From: Yersinia bercovieri ATCC 43970
Lineage (GTDB): Bacteria; Pseudomonadota; Gammaproteobacteria; Enterobacterales; Enterobacteriaceae
Direction: 5' to 3'
Assembly (NCBI RefSeq): GCF_013282745.1
Contig: NZ_CP054044.1
Coordinates: 1,240,001-1,304,000 of the forward strand
Length of the DNA stretch: 64,000 nt
Part shown: piece by piece, positions 6,813 through 57,602 of the stretch
How positions within the stretch are numbered: the first letter of the stretch is position 1
How the letters are laid out: each line of letters begins with the position of its first letter
Made by a program: the position numbers and the translations under genes
Notes under the pieces: generated by a model
The model's input: the letters and a program-made list of their open reading frames with translations, nothing else
Told to the model about the DNA's origin: nothing
The model's database searches: none

Positions 6813-7676
6813 ATGATCCGCAGCATGACCGCCTACGCCCGGCGTGACATTAAGGGTGAATGGGGCAGCGCAGCTTGGGAGCTGCGTTCCGTTAACCAAC
6901 GCTATTTAGAAACTTATATTCGCTTACCAGAACAGTTCCGCAGCCTGGAACCGGTCATTCGCGAACGTATCCGCAGCCGCCTAACTCGCGGCAAAATTGA
7001 GTGCAGCCTGCGCTTTGAACTGGACGCCACGGCACAAAGTTCACTGATCCTGAACGAAAAACTGGCGAAACAGCTGGTTGAAGCGGCGAACTGGGTCAAA
7101 ATGCAAAGTGATGAAGGCGAGATAAACCCGCTTGATGTTTTGCGCTGGCCGGGCGTGATGTCAGCAGAAGAGCAAGATCTGGATGCCATCAGCACTGAAC
7201 TGATGCAGGCGCTGGATGTGGCCCTTGATGACTTTATCATCTCCCGCGAGACCGAAGGTGCAGCATTAAAAACACTGATCGAACAGCGCCTTGATGGCGT
7301 GAGTGCCGAAGTGATTAAAGTCCGTGCACACATGCCCAACATTTTGCAGTGGCAACGTGAGCGGCTACTAAATAAACTGGAAGAAGCGCAGGTCCAGCTG
7401 GAAAATACCCGTCTGGAACAAGAGTTAGTGCTGATGGCGCAGCGTGTCGATGTCGCCGAAGAGCTGGATCGCCTCGAAGCGCACGTCAAAGAAACGCACA
7501 ATATTTTGAAGAAAAAAGAAGCTGTTGGCCGCCGCCTTGATTTTATGATGCAAGAATTCAACCGCGAGTCGAATACGCTAGCATCAAAATCTATCAATGC
7601 CGAGGTCACTAACTCAGCCATTGAGCTGAAAGTGCTTATTGAGCAAATGCGCGAACAGATTCAGAATATCGAGTAA
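6813..7676 (+). CDS. yicC: YicC family endoribonuclease
   Basis: 287-residue YicC/YloC family protein: an N-terminal domain starting MIRSMTAYARRD and a C-terminal DUF1732-type domain with GRRLDFMMQEFNRESNTLASK near residue 248. In E. coli YicC has been linked to RNA cleavage and sRNA turnover (family knowledge). It is divergent from rph, as in other enterobacteria, and ends at a strong terminator. The middle is a long charged helical segment. Confidence 0.93.
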   Translation: MIRSMTAYARRDIKGEWGSAAWELRSVNQRYLETYIRLPEQFRSLEPVIRERIRSRLTRGKIECSLRFELDATAQSSLILNEKLAKQLVEAANWVKMQSDEGEINPLDVLRWPGVMSAEEQDLDAISTELMQALDVALDDFIISRETEGAALKTLIEQRLDGVSAEVIKVRAHMPNILQWQRERLLNKLEEAQVQLENTRLEQELVLMAQRVDVAEELDRLEAHVKETHNILKKKEAVGRRLDFMMQEFNRESNTLASKSINAEVTNSAIELKVLIEQMREQIQNIE

Positions 7677-7826: not shown

Positions 7827-8159
7827 ATGAAGATGAAAACTAATTACCATAGTGTTTTTTGTCAAAGACTTAAGCAGGCTAGACTCGCTAAAGGATTGTC
7901 TCAAAAGAAGCTGGGCATTGCTGCCGGGCTTGATGAGTTTGTGGCAAGCACACGTATTAATCGTTACGAGAAAGGCGTACATGAAGTCAGTATCGAGATG
8001 GCTAAACAACTGGCGGATGTGTTAGAGGTGCCGTTAGCCTATTTCTATACCGCTGATGATGTATTGGCCGAAATAATGCTTATTATTCTGACATTGTCGC
8101 CAATACAAAAAATGGAGATATTAGCGCGGGTAAAAGAGTGGGCAGAGCAAGATCACTGA
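7827..8159 (+). CDS. XRE-family helix-turn-helix regulator
   Basis: 110-residue DNA-binding protein with an N-terminal HTH_3/XRE domain (about residues 10-70). The turn region is RLAKGLSQKKLGIAAGLDE and the recognition part is TRINRYEKGVHEVS. A short helical C-terminal tail follows. Similar stand-alone XRE proteins are common in prophages and islands. The ATG at 7827 abuts an operator palindrome and has no Shine-Dalgarno sequence in range, so the mRNA may be leaderless or start at the second ATG (7833). It may control only itself or the helicase operon about 540 bp downstream; that link is speculative. Confidence 0.85.
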   Translation: MKMKTNYHSVFCQRLKQARLAKGLSQKKLGIAAGLDEFVASTRINRYEKGVHEVSIEMAKQLADVLEVPLAYFYTADDVLAEIMLIILTLSPIQKMEILARVKEWAEQDH

Positions 8160-8695
8160 AACAAAATAGCGCCAAACCAAATCACACAAAATAAGTAAAA
8201 AGTAACGCGTGGTTTGATTGCTCATACCTACCCCCACCGGTAAAACGCCATATCCTAGGACGATATGGCGACGCATTCAGACACGGATAACAGAATCATG
8301 GCAACCTTTCCCCGCCCTCGTGCGGGGCTTTTTTTGTCTGCTATTTAGTGATGGCGTTCACCGTTTGAAGCTTTATTTCTGGTTGGCGAGACTAAAAAGG
8401 GGCGTGCATGCCTAGAGTGCATGGATCTGCATGCAAAATACCCCCCTTAAAACCCTGTGTAGCCCCAGTACTGGCGCGGTTTGGGGGTCTGTATGCAACT
8501 GCATGAAAAGCGACCTGTAAAGCGCGCAGGCGTGGAGGGGATAGCATTGCGCGCAGAGCTAATCAGGCACAGTATCTTCAAAAAAATTAACACGTTGTGG
8601 ATGAATGTAAAAAAGAACTCTATAGATATAGGTAATTGAAGGATAATTAGAAAAAGAGTAATTTGAGGTTATTAAACGACTTAAAAGAGAAATTT
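8160..8695. other. non-coding, phage-like intergenic region before helicase operon
   Basis: No gene is supported. Structures seen are a hairpin CGCCATATC-ctaggac-GATATGGCG (8246-8270) and an intrinsic terminator (8310-8335, separate entry). There is also a cluster of TGCATG hexamers between 8400 and 8510 and a GC-rich segment around 8515-8560 (aaagcgcgcaggcg). The last two resemble sequence seen at prophage or retron edges in enterobacteria, from memory only. The final 100 bp turns AT-rich and should hold the helicase promoter. Confidence 0.4.
8310..8335 (+). terminator. rho-independent terminator
   Basis: CCCCGC-cctcgt-GCGGGG followed by C and seven Ts. It lies 150 nt after the XRE regulator gene with no other gene between, so it probably ends that transcript. 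Confidence 0.8.
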
Positions 8696-10783
8696 ATGAA
8701 CATTAATCCTCAAGGCTTTGAGATACGTAACCGAGAAGTTAACAACCTTTATCAGGCTTTAGCACAATCAGATTTATCACTTGACGATGCTGAATTATTC
8801 TTCGATTTTCCAATGTACAAAGGTGATGATGACAATCTCGTTATTTCACAAATGCTGCTTATAAGCCCTATTTATGGAGTAATAATATTTTATTCATCTG
8901 GAGCCACAGAGTATAATTTTGAAGCATTAAATAAAGATGACCGAAGCTTAGAGCGTGTTGCAAGTTTTGTTGCAGCCCGCTTACTTAAAAATGATCGCTT
9001 AAGAAGAGGTATGCTCGCTTTTAGCTTACCCGTGAATACTTTATTATATTCCCCTCTAATTGATGGAAATACTATTAGAGTAGATTCATTAAGAAACCCT
9101 GTTGTGGCGACCACCAGAGAATTAATAGCCTCTATTGAATCGTTTAGAAAAGACTTTGCTGAAAATATTTTCTACGAAGCTATTTCGACAATACAAGGAG
9201 CTAAGGGCTTATTAAAACCTGAAGACAGGAATATAGAAAAACTTCCTCCTGGTTCAAAAGCCGAAAAAATAATGGGGGTTGAGTCAAAAATTCTAATGTT
9301 CGATAAAGATCAACAAGAAGGATATATTCCTGCACTTAATGGTCCACAGCGTATTAGAGGGTTGGCTGGGTCTGGTAAAACTGTAATTCTCGCAATGAAA
9401 GTTGCACAAACATTGCTACGTGACGAAACTCGAAGAGCAACTATTCTTTATACTTTTAGTACAAAGAGCCTTTATCAGCATGTAATTAGACTTATCCAAC
9501 GATTTTATCGAGAGTTTCATGATGATTCCACGAACCTCGATAGATTGACAGTAATGCACTCTTGGGGAGGAAGATCAAATGCTGGTGTCTACTATGAAGC
9601 ATGCCAAGCTTTCGGTCATGATTTTTTGACTTATCCCGCAGCTCAAGCAGCTAGCAGAGGGGGCATGGACCCATTCGAATTTGCTTGTAAAGACTTACTT
9701 GAAAGTGTCGAAGTAAAACCTCTATTTGATTTTGTATTTGTTGATGAAGCCCAAGACTATGGTATTTACTTTATGAGGCTATGTACAAAATTAGCCCGTG
9801 ATAAACAAGTCTGCTTTGGTGCTGATATTTTTCAAAACATTTTTCAGAAGAAAAGCCCAACAGCAAAAGAGATCTTTGACGACGGCACTGAGTTTCTTAA
9901 AGATAAGTTTCTTGAGGTTTGTTATCGAACACCTCTAGGTATTTTGGTTAGTGCCCATGCTTTGGGATTAGGCGTTTATGGCAATCAAGTGCAAAAAATA
10001 GAAAGTGTCGGGTATTGGGAAGATCTTGGTTATAATGTTTTATCAAGAGAGAATGGCGAATTCCAAGAGTCAGAATTAGTTGATGTTTTAAGGGAAACAA
10101 AGAACTCTCCAACATTCTCACATGAAGATACTAGAGAACTATTAAGTTATAATTTTGAATGTAAAGACTTAGAAGATGAAATTAATAAAGTAGCAACATC
10201 AATTGAGAATGACATCATGAGGGAAGGACTTCTTCCTGAAGATATTTTAGTTATATGTGCTGATGATTACCATTGTAACCCATATTTTAACAAACTAACT
10301 AAAGTACTTTCCGTGAGAGATATCCATACAAATAATGTTCATGCTGAAAAAATATCAATTCATGATTTCAAGGTAAAAGGTAGAGTAACATTAAGTACAA
10401 TTCACAAAGCAAAAGGAAATGAAGCCTATTCTGTATATATCATGGGCACTGACTTCTTATGTCATAACTTAAATATAAGAAATAGAAATTTATTATTTAC
10501 TGCGATGACAAGAACAAAAGGTTGGCTATATATAAGTGGTATCGGTGAACTTACAAGACAACTCAAAAAAGAGATTGAGATGGCTTTAAATAACGTTCCA
10601 CATATAAGATTCACATATCCTACCGCAAAAGAAGCTCAGCAGATTGAACATGATATTAAGCACGGAGAACGAACATCCGCAAAAGACTTAAGTGAGCTTG
10701 AGGCTATGTTGCAAAAATTCGGCAGTCTAGAAAATGTGCAGAAACTCCTAGATGAGCAAGCTGGTAAAAAAGGTAGAAAATGA
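8696..10783 (+). CDS. superfamily 1 DNA/RNA helicase, UvrD-like
   Basis: About 695-residue helicase. Motifs counted from the ATG at 8696: Walker A GLAGSGKT (222-229), Walker B VFVDEAQD (347-354), GADIFQNIF (374-382, motif III position), YRTP (410-413), motif V TLSTIHKAKGNEA (565-577), and motif VI LFTAMTRTKGWL (600-611). This is a complete SF1 set, so ATPase activity is expected. The first 200 residues match no domain I can name. A stretch around residues 45-70 (VISQMLLISPIYGVIIFY) vaguely recalls NERD-type nuclease strands but lacks clear catalytic residues. AAAGAGA precedes the ATG; an in-frame TTG at 8663 is an alternative start. Its stop overlaps the next gene by 4 nt. Strongly AT-rich against its surroundings, suggesting transfer. 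Confidence 0.85.
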   Translation: MNINPQGFEIRNREVNNLYQALAQSDLSLDDAELFFDFPMYKGDDDNLVISQMLLISPIYGVIIFYSSGATEYNFEALNKDDRSLERVASFVAARLLKNDRLRRGMLAFSLPVNTLLYSPLIDGNTIRVDSLRNPVVATTRELIASIESFRKDFAENIFYEAISTIQGAKGLLKPEDRNIEKLPPGSKAEKIMGVESKILMFDKDQQEGYIPALNGPQRIRGLAGSGKTVILAMKVAQTLLRDETRRATILYTFSTKSLYQHVIRLIQRFYREFHDDSTNLDRLTVMHSWGGRSNAGVYYEACQAFGHDFLTYPAAQAASRGGMDPFEFACKDLLESVEVKPLFDFVFVDEAQDYGIYFMRLCTKLARDKQVCFGADIFQNIFQKKSPTAKEIFDDGTEFLKDKFLEVCYRTPLGILVSAHALGLGVYGNQVQKIESVGYWEDLGYNVLSRENGEFQESELVDVLRETKNSPTFSHEDTRELLSYNFECKDLEDEINKVATSIENDIMREGLLPEDILVICADDYHCNPYFNKLTKVLSVRDIHTNNVHAEKISIHDFKVKGRVTLSTIHKAKGNEAYSVYIMGTDFLCHNLNIRNRNLLFTAMTRTKGWLYISGIGELTRQLKKEIEMALNNVPHIRFTYPTAKEAQQIEHDIKHGERTSAKDLSELEAMLQKFGSLENVQKLLDEQAGKKGRK

Positions 10784-11481
10784 ACGTATTTAGAGAGATT
10801 AGAGCCATAAGAGCTTGTGTATCACTGGTCGAAAATGCCGGTTTACTAAGTGATCTTAATGAATCTGTGAACTTACCTTACAATTACGTTGCACAAGCTC
10901 GCGGACTCCCATATTTAGAGTATTGGAACTTATACAAAAGGAATTTTTGGTTTCACATTAAACTGAGTGATGATGGGCTTATTTTATTTGAAGAAACCAC
11001 CTTCAGATATATAATGAGTCCAATATCTATTCCTACGATAGGTGACTTTATTAATTATGAGTTAGGTAGTGATTGGGATTCATTCACGGAAGAAGAACAA
11101 AATAGTTACATACAGTCCCAGAATTTCAAAAATTCCTATGAAAGCTTTATTGAAACCACTTCTGACTATAAAAGTTTTACTCCAATAAGATTAGATCAAC
11201 ATCCACATCAGCGCAAAGCTATTACACATCCAGCCCATCATTTACATATAGGCTACGAAAATGAATCGAGAATACCAGTCAAACGTGTATTAACGCCGTT
11301 GGCATTCACAGCTTTTATATTATCTACATTTTATCCCGATGGATGGAAAAAACTCCATATTGATGGGCATATAAATGAGGAAAGTATCTGTGAGTTGAAA
11401 TCAAAATTATCTATGATTGGGCATATAGATCAATGTTATTGGGATACAACCTGGGAGGAGAATAGACTTTATCTAGTATGA
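10780..11481 (+). CDS. DUF2290-like protein coupled to the helicase
   Basis: 233-residue protein of unknown function. It starts inside the helicase stop (ATGA overlap), so the two are translationally coupled and probably work together. No signal peptide, membrane segment or nucleotide-binding loop is seen. A conserved-looking core HPAHHLHIGYENESRIPVKR (residues 150-169) leads into LTPLAFTAFILSTFYPDGW. This pattern of His-rich strand, basic strand and aromatic helix resembles DUF2290 as I remember it; that assignment is unverified. Cytoplasmic location is expected. The same AT-rich base use as the helicase indicates they moved as a unit. Function unknown; a role in defence is a hypothesis (see findings). 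Confidence 0.8.
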   Translation: MNVFREIRAIRACVSLVENAGLLSDLNESVNLPYNYVAQARGLPYLEYWNLYKRNFWFHIKLSDDGLILFEETTFRYIMSPISIPTIGDFINYELGSDWDSFTEEEQNSYIQSQNFKNSYESFIETTSDYKSFTPIRLDQHPHQRKAITHPAHHLHIGYENESRIPVKRVLTPLAFTAFILSTFYPDGWKKLHIDGHINEESICELKSKLSMIGHIDQCYWDTTWEENRLYLV

Positions 11482-12038
11482 ACGTGGCCATGAAGATGGA
11501 AAGTGTTTTTGCAGTCACTTTCCATAAATTATTTATTTTTCATAAAGATATATAATTTCTACTCATGCTATCGCCATTCTATTGTTTCAAAAATATCAGG
11601 TAATTATAAGCATAAAATTATATGTACCAAACTGCGTACCAAAAAACTTTAATGAAATTAAAAATAAATAAATATCAATGCATTACATCAAAAATAATAA
11701 ACAAATCCAAAATATCGATTAACTTCTCACCGCATTTCAGCACGTCGCAAAAAATTTCTAATACCAAAAATTAAGTTGCACCTCAAATGTTGGATAACAA
11801 CCTGACATTTAGAGGTGCACTTTTATGATTTCTCATCGCCACAATATCCCCGCTTACCTTGCCGGACCGCTGGTTTTAACTGGTAGTGGAGGTTTTGTTC
11901 ATAGGTGAATATGTATTCATAAAACGCAAAGGTAATTTGAGTGCTTTCCGGACGCTCAAAAATAAGAATCCGTGAGATTGCTAGTCGCTAACACTCAATC
12001 TAATATTGTGAGAGATAAGTTGGTAAAAGGAAATCATC
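11482..12038. other. AT-rich intergenic stretch with inverted repeat and tiny ORF
   Basis: About 550 bp without a clear gene. An imperfect inverted repeat pairs TGCACCTCAAATGT (11777-11790) with ACATTTAGAGGTGCA (11805-11819), followed by CTTTT, and may be a terminator or a mobile-element end. Directly after it lies a 27-codon ORF (11825-11908) with GAGGTG eight nt before its ATG, possibly the 5' scrap of a lost gene. Near 11622-11645 gtaccaaa/gtaccaaaa occurs twice, as in some recombinase sites. The cigR promoter must lie in 11910-12030. Confidence 0.4.
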
Positions 12039-12521
12039 ATGTTTAAGTGTCGCGGTTTAATCGCAGTATTGGCAGCTATTATCTCTCTTTCCATGTTTGC
12101 AACACCGGCACTGGCAAATCCGGGTAATGGCAACAGTGGTGGTAACCATGGCAATAGCGGCAATCATGGGAATAGCCAAAAAGGTAACGCTAGCCAGAAA
12201 AATACCACGTCAGCCGATCATCGTAAAAACTATGGTAAACCTGATCATGTTGACTCAGATATTAACTATAACTTAGCCCGCAATCTGGCAGTTAACTTCG
12301 GCCTGACGGGTTATCAATCATTGCCGCCAGGCATAGCGAAAAATTTGGCCCGCGGGAAACCCCTTCCTCCAGGCATTGCAAAGAAAAGTGTTCCTGCTTC
12401 CATGCTGGGGCAGCTCCCTTATTACCCAGGATATGAGTGGAAGATGGTGGGTAATGATTTGGTGCTGATCGCATTGAGCACTGCCGTCGTAACGGCAATC
12501 ATTAACGGCGTTTTTGATTAG
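12039..12521 (+). CDS. cigR: CigR-family membrane protein
   Basis: 160-residue exported protein. A signal peptide (about residues 1-26, ending TPALA) is followed by a low-complexity Gly/Asn/Ser/His-rich linker (28-58). Next is a tandem motif LPPGIAKNLARGKPLPPGIAKK (96-117), then a YYPGYEWKMVGNDLVLI strand (RcnB-like) and a hydrophobic C-terminus (about 142-158) that could anchor it. The doubled LPPGI signature and layout identify the CigR family. In Salmonella CigR is encoded on SPI-3 beside selC and acts as an anti-virulence regulator. Here it also lies about 0.8 kb from selC. AAAAGGAAATC precedes the ATG. Role in this organism unproven. Confidence 0.82.
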   Translation: MFKCRGLIAVLAAIISLSMFATPALANPGNGNSGGNHGNSGNHGNSQKGNASQKNTTSADHRKNYGKPDHVDSDINYNLARNLAVNFGLTGYQSLPPGIAKNLARGKPLPPGIAKKSVPASMLGQLPYYPGYEWKMVGNDLVLIALSTAVVTAIINGVFD

Positions 12522-13255: not shown

Positions 13256-13350
13256 TGGCGGAAGACCACAGGAGTCGAACCTGCCGAGGACCGCTGGCGG
13301 CCCCATCTGGATTTGAAGTCCAGCCGCCCCACCGGGGACGATGATCTTCC
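13256..13350 (-). tRNA. selC: tRNA-Sec (UCA anticodon)
   Basis: 95-nt gene running from 13350 (GGAAGATCATC...) to 13256 (...GGTCTTCCGCCA) with CCA encoded. The anticodon loop CTTCAAA gives UCA. The long variable arm and extended acceptor stem typical of selenocysteine tRNA are present, and it closely matches E. coli selC. A TATAAT box on the minus strand (13382-13377) lies 27 nt before the mature 5' end. It serves the UGA codon in fdoG at 38.4 kb through SelA and SelB. The selC 3' end is a known island integration site; here the 3' side faces arsC, cigR and the helicase pair. Confidence 0.97.
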
Positions 13351-54180: not shown

Positions 54181-54445
54181 AGGTCACATCGATTAGAATA
54201 AAAAATCTATATTAGACTTTTTATTCTAAATATCTAGCTAATTTGATGAAGGATCATAGATTCGAAAATTATGAATTAGTTTCTGATAGTTATCTAAAAT
54301 CAGTCCAATAGAGGTACTAATTAATACGAGAAGAGGGCTAGGGGCTATCATTATAGATATACTGTTTTTCTATACAGCCTTCTTTCATCTGGGTAAAATG
54401 AGTGATAAGATTACATTGAAAATTCCCTGAGTGAGTAATCCTAAG
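54181..54445. other. intergenic region before restriction-modification cassette
   Basis: About 265 bp, markedly AT-rich, with no gene. It holds the promoters of the divergent regulator gene and of the methyltransferase. The left edge of the AT-rich cassette lies here. No direct or terminal repeat was recognised by eye. Confidence 0.5.
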
Positions 54446-55873
54446 ATGGAAGAATTGAACTTAATTGCAAATCAGATTGCAGAACAAGCACAGCAGAAAG
54501 AACAAAAAAGATTACAACAAGATAAAGAACTTGTTCGACGAGTGCTAGAAATCTACGATCAGAAAGCTGTTGCAGAAGTTCTGCGGAAAGTCAGTAAGTG
54601 TGAATGGACTCGTGAAGCCCTCAACCGCTGGTATAACGGGAAATCCATACAGAAGCCTCTAACTGAGGCTGAAATTGATATGCTACAAAATATGCTACCT
54701 TCACCACCAAAACATCATCCTAATTATCAATTCCGCTTTATTGATCTTTTTGCTGGGATTGGTGGTATCCGAAAAGGTTTTGAGGCCATTGGCGGACAGT
54801 GTGTATTCACCAGCGAATGGAACCCTTATGCAGTTCGGACATATAAAGCCAATTGGTATTGTGACCCCGACGAGCACCGATTTAATTCAGATATACGTGA
54901 GATTACTCTTAGTGAGACTGCGGAAATATCAGATGAAGAAGCCTATAAATATATAGACCAGCATATTCCTGATCATGACGTTTTACTTGCTGGGTTTCCT
55001 TGTCAGCCATTCTCGCTAGCAGGGGTTTCAAAGAAAAATTCTTTAGGTCGTGCTCATGGATTTGAGTGTGAAACCCAGGGGACATTATTTTTTGATGTCG
55101 CCAGAATTATTGCCTCAAAGAAACCTGCTATTTTCGTACTTGAGAATGTTAAGAATCTGAAAAGTCACGACAAAGGTAAAACTTTTCAGATTATTATGAA
55201 TACACTAAATGAGTTGGGCTATTCGGTCGCAGATGCTGATGCAGTCGGATCACAAGACCCTAAAATTGTGGATGGAAAAAATTTTCTACCCCAGCACAGG
55301 GAGCGTATTGTTTTAGTGGGATTTCGTAAAGATCTTAATATCGATAAAGACTTTACACTAAAAGATATCCATAAGTTTTTCCCTGAAAAACGCCCGACCT
55401 TTGGTGAATTACTTGAGCCTGTTGTTGATGATAAGTACATACTGACGCCGCATCTGTGGAAGTACTTATATAATTACGCTAAAAAGCATCAGGCAAAAGG
55501 GAATGGTTTTGGATTTGGGTTAGTTGACCCAACGAACAGTGATAGTGTAGCCAGAACATTATCAGCCCGTTATCACAAAGATGGTTCAGAGATTTTAATT
55601 GATCGTGGGTGGGATAAAGTTTTAGGTGAAAATGATTTTGATGATAAAAAAAATCAGGAAAATCGCCCTCGTCGACTTACCCCAAAAGAGTGTGCCCGAC
55701 TGATGGGGTTTGAAACTCCGGATAAGGAATCGTTCCGAATTCCTGTATCCGATACACAGGCTTATCGACAATTTGGTAACTCCGTAATTGTTCCTGTTTT
55801 TGCGGCAGTCGCTCAGCTATTGGCTCCATTCATAGCAAAAGCAGTTAACGTACGAAAAGATAAGGCGGCTTAA
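54446..55873 (+). CDS. ecoRIIM: DNA cytosine-5 methyltransferase, EcoRII/Dcm type (CCWGG)
   Basis: 475-residue C5 methyltransferase. Counting from the ATG at 54446, the catalytic Cys of [11 protein letters not shown] is residue 186, the number known for M.EcoRII. A GTG at 54431 would add five residues. Motif I is [16 protein letters not shown], motif VI ENVKN, motif VIII QHRERI, and motif X is near [11 protein letters not shown]. The N-terminal 90 residues contain an HTH-like region as in M.EcoRII, which represses its own gene. Wording such as [17 protein letters not shown] is nearer to M.EcoRII than to E. coli Dcm. Specificity for the inner C of CCWGG is inferred from this. AT-rich. Confidence 0.93.
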
Positions 55874-55878
55874 TAATC

Positions 55879-56355
55879 ATGGCTGATGTTCATTCTTCGG
55901 AAACTCGTAGTAAAAATATGAGGGCTATCCGGGCAAGGGATACAGCCATAGAAATTAAGTTAGCAAAAATACTTGACCAGTTAGGGCTTTCTTACCTAGT
56001 TCAGGTTAGTGAGCTCCCCGGTAAGCCCGATTTTATTGTTGATGAATATCGGGCGATAATTTTTGTTCATGGCTGTTTCTGGCATAAACATAATTGCCAT
56101 TTATTTAAGAGCCCAGCTTCACACACCGATTTTTGGCTTAAAAAAATCCAAGGAAATGTAAAAAGAGATGATAAGGTTATAAAACAGCTCTCGGATGATG
56201 GCTGGAAAGTTTTAGTTGTCTGGGAGTGTGCATTACGGGGTAAGCACAAGCTAACAGATAATGATATTTCAGCGAGAGTCGAAGAGTGGATTTGTAGTAG
56301 TGAAGTAAATGCTCAAATTGATACACAAGGAATTAGCCAAATGATAAGTAGTTGA
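55879..56355 (+). CDS. vsr: very short patch repair endonuclease
   Basis: 158-residue mismatch nuclease that nicks beside T:G mispairs arising from deamination of 5-methylcytosine in CCWGG. Asp51 (PDFIVDEY), His64 and His69 of the active site are present. Zinc ligands Cys66, His71, Cys73 and the later WEC Cys are kept. Thr63 of E. coli Vsr is Val here. It starts 5 nt after the methyltransferase stop (in E. coli K-12 the two genes overlap), so they are co-transcribed. Confidence 0.95.
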   Translation: MADVHSSETRSKNMRAIRARDTAIEIKLAKILDQLGLSYLVQVSELPGKPDFIVDEYRAIIFVHGCFWHKHNCHLFKSPASHTDFWLKKIQGNVKRDDKVIKQLSDDGWKVLVVWECALRGKHKLTDNDISARVEEWICSSEVNAQIDTQGISQMISS

Positions 56356-56399
56356 CCAAACTCCGACTAGAAGCAAGTGAGAGTTCAGTCATTTTTTCG

Positions 56400-57602
56400 T
56401 TAAGGATTATATATACTTTTGGTCTCCTCAATAAAATCAGAGAGAGAAATTAACTCATTACGAATAGATTTAGGATATTTTTCGTGAAGAGGTTTAGGAA
56501 CCACTAATTGGACACCTGCATCTTTCATTTCCTGGAACTGATTAACAGACACCCCTTCCTGAAGAGTGAAAAGGTGAATATTATCAATGCGATTTGCCTC
56601 ATTGAGCGCCTGGCGCCAGCGATCTTTACAGGTGGTTTTTACTGCAAGCATTCTCAATTTTTCGGAAGGATACTCAGCATCATAATAAGCTTCAGCAGAG
56701 GGAAATAGAAAATCCGGCTTCTTATTGCCTTCAGTAATACTCTGAGTAACAAAATCAGTAAGGCTATTTTCGATAAATGTATTCTCCAGATGTAATTCCA
56801 GAGATCTTCCTGCTCGCGATTTGCGGCGATTACTTACTGAGTTTGCTAAGCTAATAAAATCATCTACTGACGAAAAACCTGCTTGCACCCGCTCCAAGAC
56901 ATGTAATTCTTCTATTCGACGAAACAGAGAATATTCAGCATCGCGTTTTTCGAGTAATAGCTCATCAGGGTTTAGACTTTTGAATTGGAATACTTTAGGG
57001 AGATAACTAATTATCTCAATACCTGGCGGGAATGAAATAGACCATTGCTCTGGGATCGGATAATTAGTGGACTTCCAGTTATAGCTTGCTATAGCAAAAC
57101 CGCCCAGAACCTGATTTGATGGGCCTGAAACTGAAAAGCCAGGGATCACTTCCCCCGTCATAGATTCCAGCAGCTCTTCCTCTACCAGAGAGTTGCATAG
57201 CCACACATCAATAAAGTCACAGGTGTTATTGGGCACACTATGAAAAGCGAAAATAGTCAGTGCCCCAGTATTCTCTTTATTTAACAGTGGGCTACCTTTC
57301 CCCCAACAAGTAATTCGTTTTTCGTTACGTGTACCATCAAAATGACGGTTATTGTAATAAATAGCCCTGACTATACTCTCAATATTGCCATGGGAGCTTA
57401 TCCTTGCCGGCAAATGAATATCTGGATTTCTAATATCAGTTCGAACAATAGAAGAGAATTGTTTCTCAATCACTTCAGCCGGTATATAGACTCCAGCCTG
57501 ATGCGCGCCTGTTGCACCAGTATCATTACCGGAAAGGCGCTTGATATAGATATGCCAGTCGCCAGATGATTTCTCAGATAACCAGTTATGGAAAGCAGAC
57601 AC
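56400..57602 (-). CDS. ecoRIIR: type IIE restriction endonuclease, EcoRII-like
   Basis: 400-residue homologue of EcoRII (404 aa), which cuts before CCWGG and needs a second site as effector. The N-terminal effector-binding domain (about 1-175) retains YIKRLSGNDTGATGAHQ and TRNEKRITCWGKGSPL. The C-terminal PD-(D/E)xK nuclease has Glu269, Asp297, Lys322 and Lys326, exactly two residues offset from EcoRII Glu271, Asp299, Lys324 and Lys328, so it should be active. Convergent with vsr, 44 nt apart. Must be balanced by the adjacent methyltransferase. AT-rich, likely acquired. Confidence 0.95.
   Translation of the reverse strand: MSAFHNWLSEKSSGDWHIYIKRLSGNDTGATGAHQAGVYIPAEVIEKQFSSIVRTDIRNPDIHLPARISSHGNIESIVRAIYYNNRHFDGTRNEKRITCWGKGSPLLNKENTGALTIFAFHSVPNNTCDFIDVWLCNSLVEEELLESMTGEVIPGFSVSGPSNQVLGGFAIASYNWKSTNYPIPEQWSISFPPGIEIISYLPKVFQFKSLNPDELLLEKRDAEYSLFRRIEELHVLERVQAGFSSVDDFISLANSVSNRRKSRAGRSLELHLENTFIENSLTDFVTQSITEGNKKPDFLFPSAEAYYDAEYPSEKLRMLAVKTTCKDRWRQALNEANRIDNIHLFTLQEGVSVNQFQEMKDAGVQLVVPKPLHEKYPKSIRNELISLSDFIEETKSIYNP

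Follow-up and report, generated by a model that had tools for sequence, protein, structure and literature searches.

Positions 8696–11481 of a 64,000-nucleotide stretch of the Yersinia bercovieri ATCC 43970 genome (contig NZ_CP054044.1, positions 1,240,001 to 1,304,000; genome size 4.4 Mb), referred to here as the window, hold two overlapping genes on the forward strand that are considered here in relation to the Helicase+DUF2290 anti-phage system. The first gene (8696–10783, ATG start) encodes a superfamily 1 (SF1) UvrD/PcrA-like helicase of 695 residues, the N-terminal region of which (approximately residues 1–165) is unassigned; an alternative TTG start lies 33 nt upstream of the ATG, in a frame that is also open. 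The second gene (10780–11481, ATG start) encodes a DUF2290 protein of 233 residues and overlaps the first by 4 nt (ATGA). The G+C content of the pair is 0.356, compared with 0.51 for the neighbouring core gene yicC and 0.499 for the window as a whole. An AT-rich operon of this make-up, with an SF1 helicase carrying its motifs and a 4-nt overlap with a 233-residue protein, had been described in the original prediction, and this description holds.

The helicase matches the Pfam families UvrD_C_2 (45.3 bits), UvrD-helicase (30.8 bits) and UvrD_C (26.7 bits), all in excess of the Pfam cut-offs, and its residues 31–675 match the PADLOC model PDLC03002 (`Helicase') at 366.5 bits. Across 50 aligned helicases, 49 of which were drawn from the best 120 of 1594 homologues found among 8000 scored candidates, the Walker A motif GLAGSGKT (residues 222–229) and Asp350, Glu351, Gln353 and Asp354 are invariant, as are Lys573, Gly574, Asn575, Glu576, Thr602 and Arg606; the ATP-binding and translocation motifs are thus conserved throughout. 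Residues 1–175 searched alone have no Pfam match with the threshold relaxed to E ≤ 5, in keeping with the earlier description of the N-terminus as unassigned. The helicase family STM2767 (NCBIfam NF053713) matches residues 180–674 at 153.4 bits, far under the model cut-off of 550. In structural searches with the predicted helicase model (m5434a6875a85), the top Foldseek matches were human Schlafen-11 and Schlafen-14, and the top VIA match was UvrD. The partner matches PF10053 at 54.2 bits, against a Pfam cut-off of 25, and the PADLOC model PDLC02998 (DUF2290) at 55 bits, so that the partner, earlier designated DUF2290-like, does belong to a family.

Satellite setting at the yicC locus

The pair lies downstream of yicC (6813–7676, forward strand), a core gene found in all 25 Yersinia species genomes surveyed (one genome per species), the 3′ end of which is a satellite attachment (att) site. 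The last 22 bp of this gene (7655–7676, forward strand) form an attL-like core that recurs at the far end of satellites in two other Yersinia loci, with one mismatch in Y. vastinensis (L045) and two in L038. An attR-like core at 11701–11722 (forward strand), in a position corresponding to the right att core of the Y. vastinensis satellite, is identical to the yicC 3′ end at 18 of its 22 positions, and no other match with five or fewer mismatches to the att core was found on the forward strand of the window. Between the two cores and upstream of the pair, on the same strand, are a gene for a 110-residue XRE/HTH_3 regulator (7827–8159; HTH_3, 44.2 bits; PADLOC Control_protein, 88.9 bits), the last 20 codons of a delta (Ogr/Delta) gene (8228–8287; 85% identical by tblastn to residues 63–82 of the 82-residue delta protein of the Y. 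vastinensis satellite) and a cohesive-end (cos) region of the P2/P4 type (8460–8560), whose core (8529–8547) lies 148 bp before the helicase start. Fifteen of the 19 core bases (15 of 19) are shared with the annotated cohesive end of P2 (cosR) and with the ends of the P4 genome, and 18 of the 19 with the Yersinia P2-like phage vB_YenM_201.16, where the flanks also align. In this phage the match falls between the replication gene A (gpA) and the portal gene Q (gpQ), the interval that corresponds to the cos-proximal region of Rousset et al. (2022; PMC9122126).

Of the features expected of a functional P4-like satellite, the window thus retains the cos site shared with P2-like helpers and lacks the int, alpha, sid and delta genes: a search of the 16 kb that begin at yicC recovered no integrase, alpha primase or sid, and of delta only the last 20 codons. 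The pair occupies the cos-adjacent cargo slot of a P4-like satellite that inserted itself at the yicC 3′ end, and sequence comparison shows that this satellite then lost everything from the integrase through most of delta. The XRE gene and the phage-like sequence that had been noted beside the pair are present, the latter being the cos site and the end of the delta gene. The accessory block had also been placed on the 3′ side of selC (13256–13350, reverse strand), which is where the pair lies; the attachment site is nevertheless yicC and the element a P4-like satellite, and a selC-borne island was rejected since the att repeats are at yicC and not at selC. A CigR-family gene (12039–12521; NCBIfam NF040487, 204.7 bits) adjoins the remnant and is followed by a 141-residue frame on the reverse strand, ArsC-like by eye, and then by selC.

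An intact-looking relative of this element is found in Y. vastinensis (L045), where the att core brackets 12.0 kb at yicC with the order integrase, 909-residue primase (DUF927 and Toprim), Sid-family protein, delta, cos, helicase, DUF2290 and att. By Pfam, PHROGs and blastp, this element has the integrase, alpha-type primase, Sid/Psu-family protein, Ogr/Delta protein and cos of a P4-like satellite, and its cos region is 95.6% identical to that of the window. Five of its proteins were compared with seven proteins of P4 (NC_001609): int, alpha, sid and delta have counterparts with 26–42% identity over the aligned parts, while the fifth, a 235-residue protein beside int, has none among the seven. 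The two satellites share the cos sequence and the sid–delta order, and in both the cargo is flanked by cos on one side and by the int/att region on the other; the Yersinia satellite differs from P4 in having int next to the yicC end and in the absence of a psu match, as has been reported for P4-like elements of Yersiniaceae (PMC8628076). The pair differs between the window and Y. vastinensis at two positions in 2,819 bp, whereas the two yicC genes are 86.8% identical, and the cargo has therefore been exchanged recently.

The same element is present at yicC in genome G015 (L038) with other cargo after cos (3075–5975 of L038), namely a SMEK-domain protein, a middle component of the MC6 family and a DUF2326 protein; Pfam connects the MC6 family to ABC-3C systems, and this cargo is defence-like. 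An integrase match adjoins yicC in six of the 25 Yersinia loci; of these six matches, one is cut by a contig end and another is just 74% identical. Three of the 25 loci (L059, L060 and L061) are shorter than 2.3 kb, so that their flank is barely seen.

Several further observations concern the borders of the remnant. Immediately to the right of the attR-like core, positions 11723–11752 extend a match of 51–53 nt (core included) to the sequence that follows yicC in five other Yersinia loci (L038, L040, L045, L047 and L049), in four of which a satellite integrase comes next; the corresponding match in L052 is shorter (34 nt). This segment possibly represents the left end of another element arranged in tandem. 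The XRE protein is 82% identical to a regulator encoded on the far side of the right att core in L038; about 30 bp after the gene for that regulator comes part of a delta-like gene (residues 18–56, 72%), and the XRE–delta succession may represent the arrangement of a second type of element. The XRE gene is also 86% identical over 94 bp to a helix–turn–helix gene near the RepL and MobQ genes of Escherichia coli 042, and a relative of it is found near yicC in genome G021. Elsewhere in the window, a second AT-rich accessory block (54431–57602) encodes a C5 cytosine methyltransferase, a Vsr endonuclease and an EcoRII-like enzyme (EcoRII-N and EcoRII-C), which make up a type II restriction–modification system with Vsr.

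Linkage, distribution and relation to described systems

Two of the 25 Yersinia species genomes carry the helicase and none of the 35 other relatives searched does, which makes it accessory, as had been supposed, and led to the rejection of a housekeeping locus. Within the order, a protein search detected DUF2290 in two of 295 genomes, in the second of them as a decayed fragment, and PF10053 was detected in four of 369 genomes of the class and nine of 398 of the phylum, each count including the genome of the window. A survey of gene neighbourhoods, proposed in the original prediction together with a Pfam search of both proteins (which returned the UvrD-type domains and DUF2290), placed a helicase of this family directly upstream of DUF2290 on the same strand at all 12 evaluable loci found via DUF2290. 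The count omits L085 (contig end), L037 (decayed, no profile match), H36 (one of two Proteus records, of which the other was examined) and L087–L089 (the same places as L062–L064), nor is the copy in the window counted; L081 and L082 have identical scores and may be near-copies, in which case the 12 loci would equal 11. In the opposite direction, DUF2290 stands beside the helicase in four of the five class genomes in which the latter was found, the fifth being G401, whose helicase relative (L090) scores 273 bits to the family profile and has no DUF2290 match in the adjoining DNA. Among at least 13 helicase matches in viral contigs, the two long ones are accompanied by DUF2290 and the 11 local ones are not. 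A chance pairing was rejected on the basis of the constant linkage, and the near-identity of the pair in two species with considerably more divergent yicC genes marks it as mobile; helicase and DUF2290 form a two-gene mobile, accessory unit, which agrees with the original view that they move together.

A system of this composition was published in 2022 as Helicase+DUF2290 (Rst helicase+DUF2290), active against phage T7, and published anti-T7 gene pairs of this kind come from P4-like satellites (Rousset et al., 2022; PMC9122126). A review from 2023 lists the helicase domains of the system and calls their role unexplored (PMC10952713). The window reproduces the two families, with a UvrD-like SF1 helicase directly upstream of a DUF2290 partner on the same strand, and also the kind of genomic site, since the pair is satellite cargo next to cos, the hotspot that is typical of, although not essential to, the published system; the difference is that the Yersinia copy resides in a decayed satellite at yicC. 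We consider it almost certain that the pair is an intact copy of this system and that it originated from a P4-like satellite; that all of this holds and that the pair would in addition work as a defence is also probable, if to a lesser degree. Some points weigh against this assignment. PADLOC was used as single models and not through its system-level rules, the relatives are distant (the DUF2290 protein of Klebsiella variicola is 58% identical to the window copy), the correspondence with the published system is one of families, gene order and site and not of the tested sequence itself, and protection against T7 was shown for the published pair, whereas the present copy is known from its sequence.

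A further likeness, by description, is to PA1372/PA1371 of Pseudomonas aeruginosa PAO1, a helicase and a DUF2290 gene in a low-G+C mobile region (PMC4410645, PMC11637435, PMC8407307), which are named Helicase+DUF2290 in PMC11637435 and differ in being known for contributing to the cost that plasmid pNUK73 imposes. Gabija (GajA and GajB) likewise consists of two genes, one of them for a UvrD-like helicase, and is defined by its OLD/TOPRIM nuclease partner GajA (PMC10952713). The best PADLOC GajB model reaches 41.5 bits, far below the `Helicase' model, and there is no GajA-type match; Gabija was rejected because the partner matches DUF2290 models only. Hachiman (HamA and HamB) is also composed of a helicase and a small partner. 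HamB is a superfamily 2 helicase, and Hachiman was rejected in view of the UvrD-type SF1 domains and the DUF2290 partner found here. Models for Zorya, Hachiman and Druantia are not among the PADLOC matches listed for the two proteins, in line with the exclusion of these systems and of Gabija in the original prediction. The same prediction had put the pair forward as a candidate undescribed defence system. The low GajB score and the missing Zorya, Hachiman and Druantia matches would suit such a proposal, but both proteins fall into named families and PADLOC models, and families, order and kind of site are all those of a pair already in print (PMC9122126); the proposal was rejected, and next to no likelihood is left to it.

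Possible mechanism and biological meaning

As a tentative mechanism, the helicase would act as a sensor that licenses a DUF2290 effector, a logic for which Hachiman offers an analogy (PMC12278908). The helicase would bind to and move on single-stranded or branched DNA arising from invading replication, such as that of phage T7 or of a Rep-driven plasmid, and would thereby license or deliver DUF2290, whose action would stop the phage or arrest the cell. The invariant R-x-D, H-P-x-x-H and R-x-P residues of DUF2290 would then form an active or ligand site. Indeed, 11 residues are identical in all 36 aligned DUF2290 sequences (leaving out P0001, a 99% copy, P0021, which is partial, L082 and L085), including Asp64, Arg137, Asp139, His150, His154 and Arg164 in the numbering of the window copy. 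In P. aeruginosa, inactivation of PA1372 abolishes the cost and the SOS induction caused by pNUK73 (PMC4410645, PMC11637435) and reduces rep mRNA 11-fold; plasmid copy number does not change significantly when helicase and kinase mutants are pooled (PMC4410645). Other observations speak against the proposed mechanism. Mutations in two kinase genes (PA4673.15-16) relieve the same cost, the cost of four other plasmids is unchanged by the PA1372 mutation, and the authors attribute the effect to rep over-expression and not to a defence response (PMC4410645). A predicted DUF2290 model (mean predicted local distance difference test score, pLDDT, 78) found nothing convincing in the PDB or BFVD, and no activity of DUF2290 is given in the literature passages covered; for these two reasons the role of effector is a guess. 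The more specific proposal, that DUF2290 is an effector enzyme of as yet unsolved fold, built around the invariant R-x-D/HPxxH/R-x-P core and activated by the helicase on foreign replication intermediates, is possible but rather doubtful.

The roles might also be reversed. The helicase, with its N-terminal domain, would then be the effector and disrupt the replication of the invader, and DUF2290 would recognize a phage or plasmid product and serve as sensor, adaptor or restraint. In P. aeruginosa the plasmid cost is relieved when only the helicase is inactivated, and the helicase of G401, one of the five class-wide matches, has no DUF2290 beside it, so that related helicases may work without it. 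This arrangement is unlikely, given that the invariant polar Asp/Arg/Asp/His/His/Arg set resembles an active site more than a binding surface and that DUF2290 without the helicase was not seen among the 12 evaluable loci.

With the satellite decayed, the pair might also be inert cargo that is no longer expressed or active in this strain: integrase, primase and Sid were not found downstream of yicC, delta is cut to 20 codons, and a promoter scan returned eight promoter-like sites, where shuffled sequences gave 15.2 on average, and none of the eight lies between cos and the helicase start. Both frames are nevertheless uninterrupted, the motifs are preserved and the pair agrees with the copy in the intact-looking satellite at all but two of 2,819 bases, which renders inertness improbable. 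Another view, that the two att-like cores, cos and defence genes make up a minimal, non-autonomous 4-kb satellite still mobile through the integrase of a related satellite and a P2-like helper, could appeal to the retention of these sites and to the integrase-bearing satellites that other Yersinia carry at this site. Four of the 22 positions of the right att core are mismatched, the sequence after yicC differs from the left end of the intact copies, this exact unit was not seen again among the 25 Yersinia loci and the only portal found in the genome is 33% identical to the Yersinia phage portal; such residual mobility is thus very improbable. The portal-like gene in question, of the P2 family (G000 C1:4080299-4081096, L093; aligned over residues 55–323), perhaps belongs to a P2-like prophage.

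The system itself was already known, and what is added here is one more copy with a clear view of where its genes came from, which also removes the false lead of an undescribed system (PMC9122126). The locus provides a clean natural example of a satellite leaving its defence cassette behind, the element being intact-looking in one Yersinia species and stripped at the same site in another. Should the sensor–effector mechanism be true, a single pair would explain both the block to T7 and the plasmid cost in P. aeruginosa. The six invariant polar residues of DUF2290 named above make the mechanism of Helicase+DUF2290 directly testable, and the chemistry of DUF2290 is the part that could become interesting.
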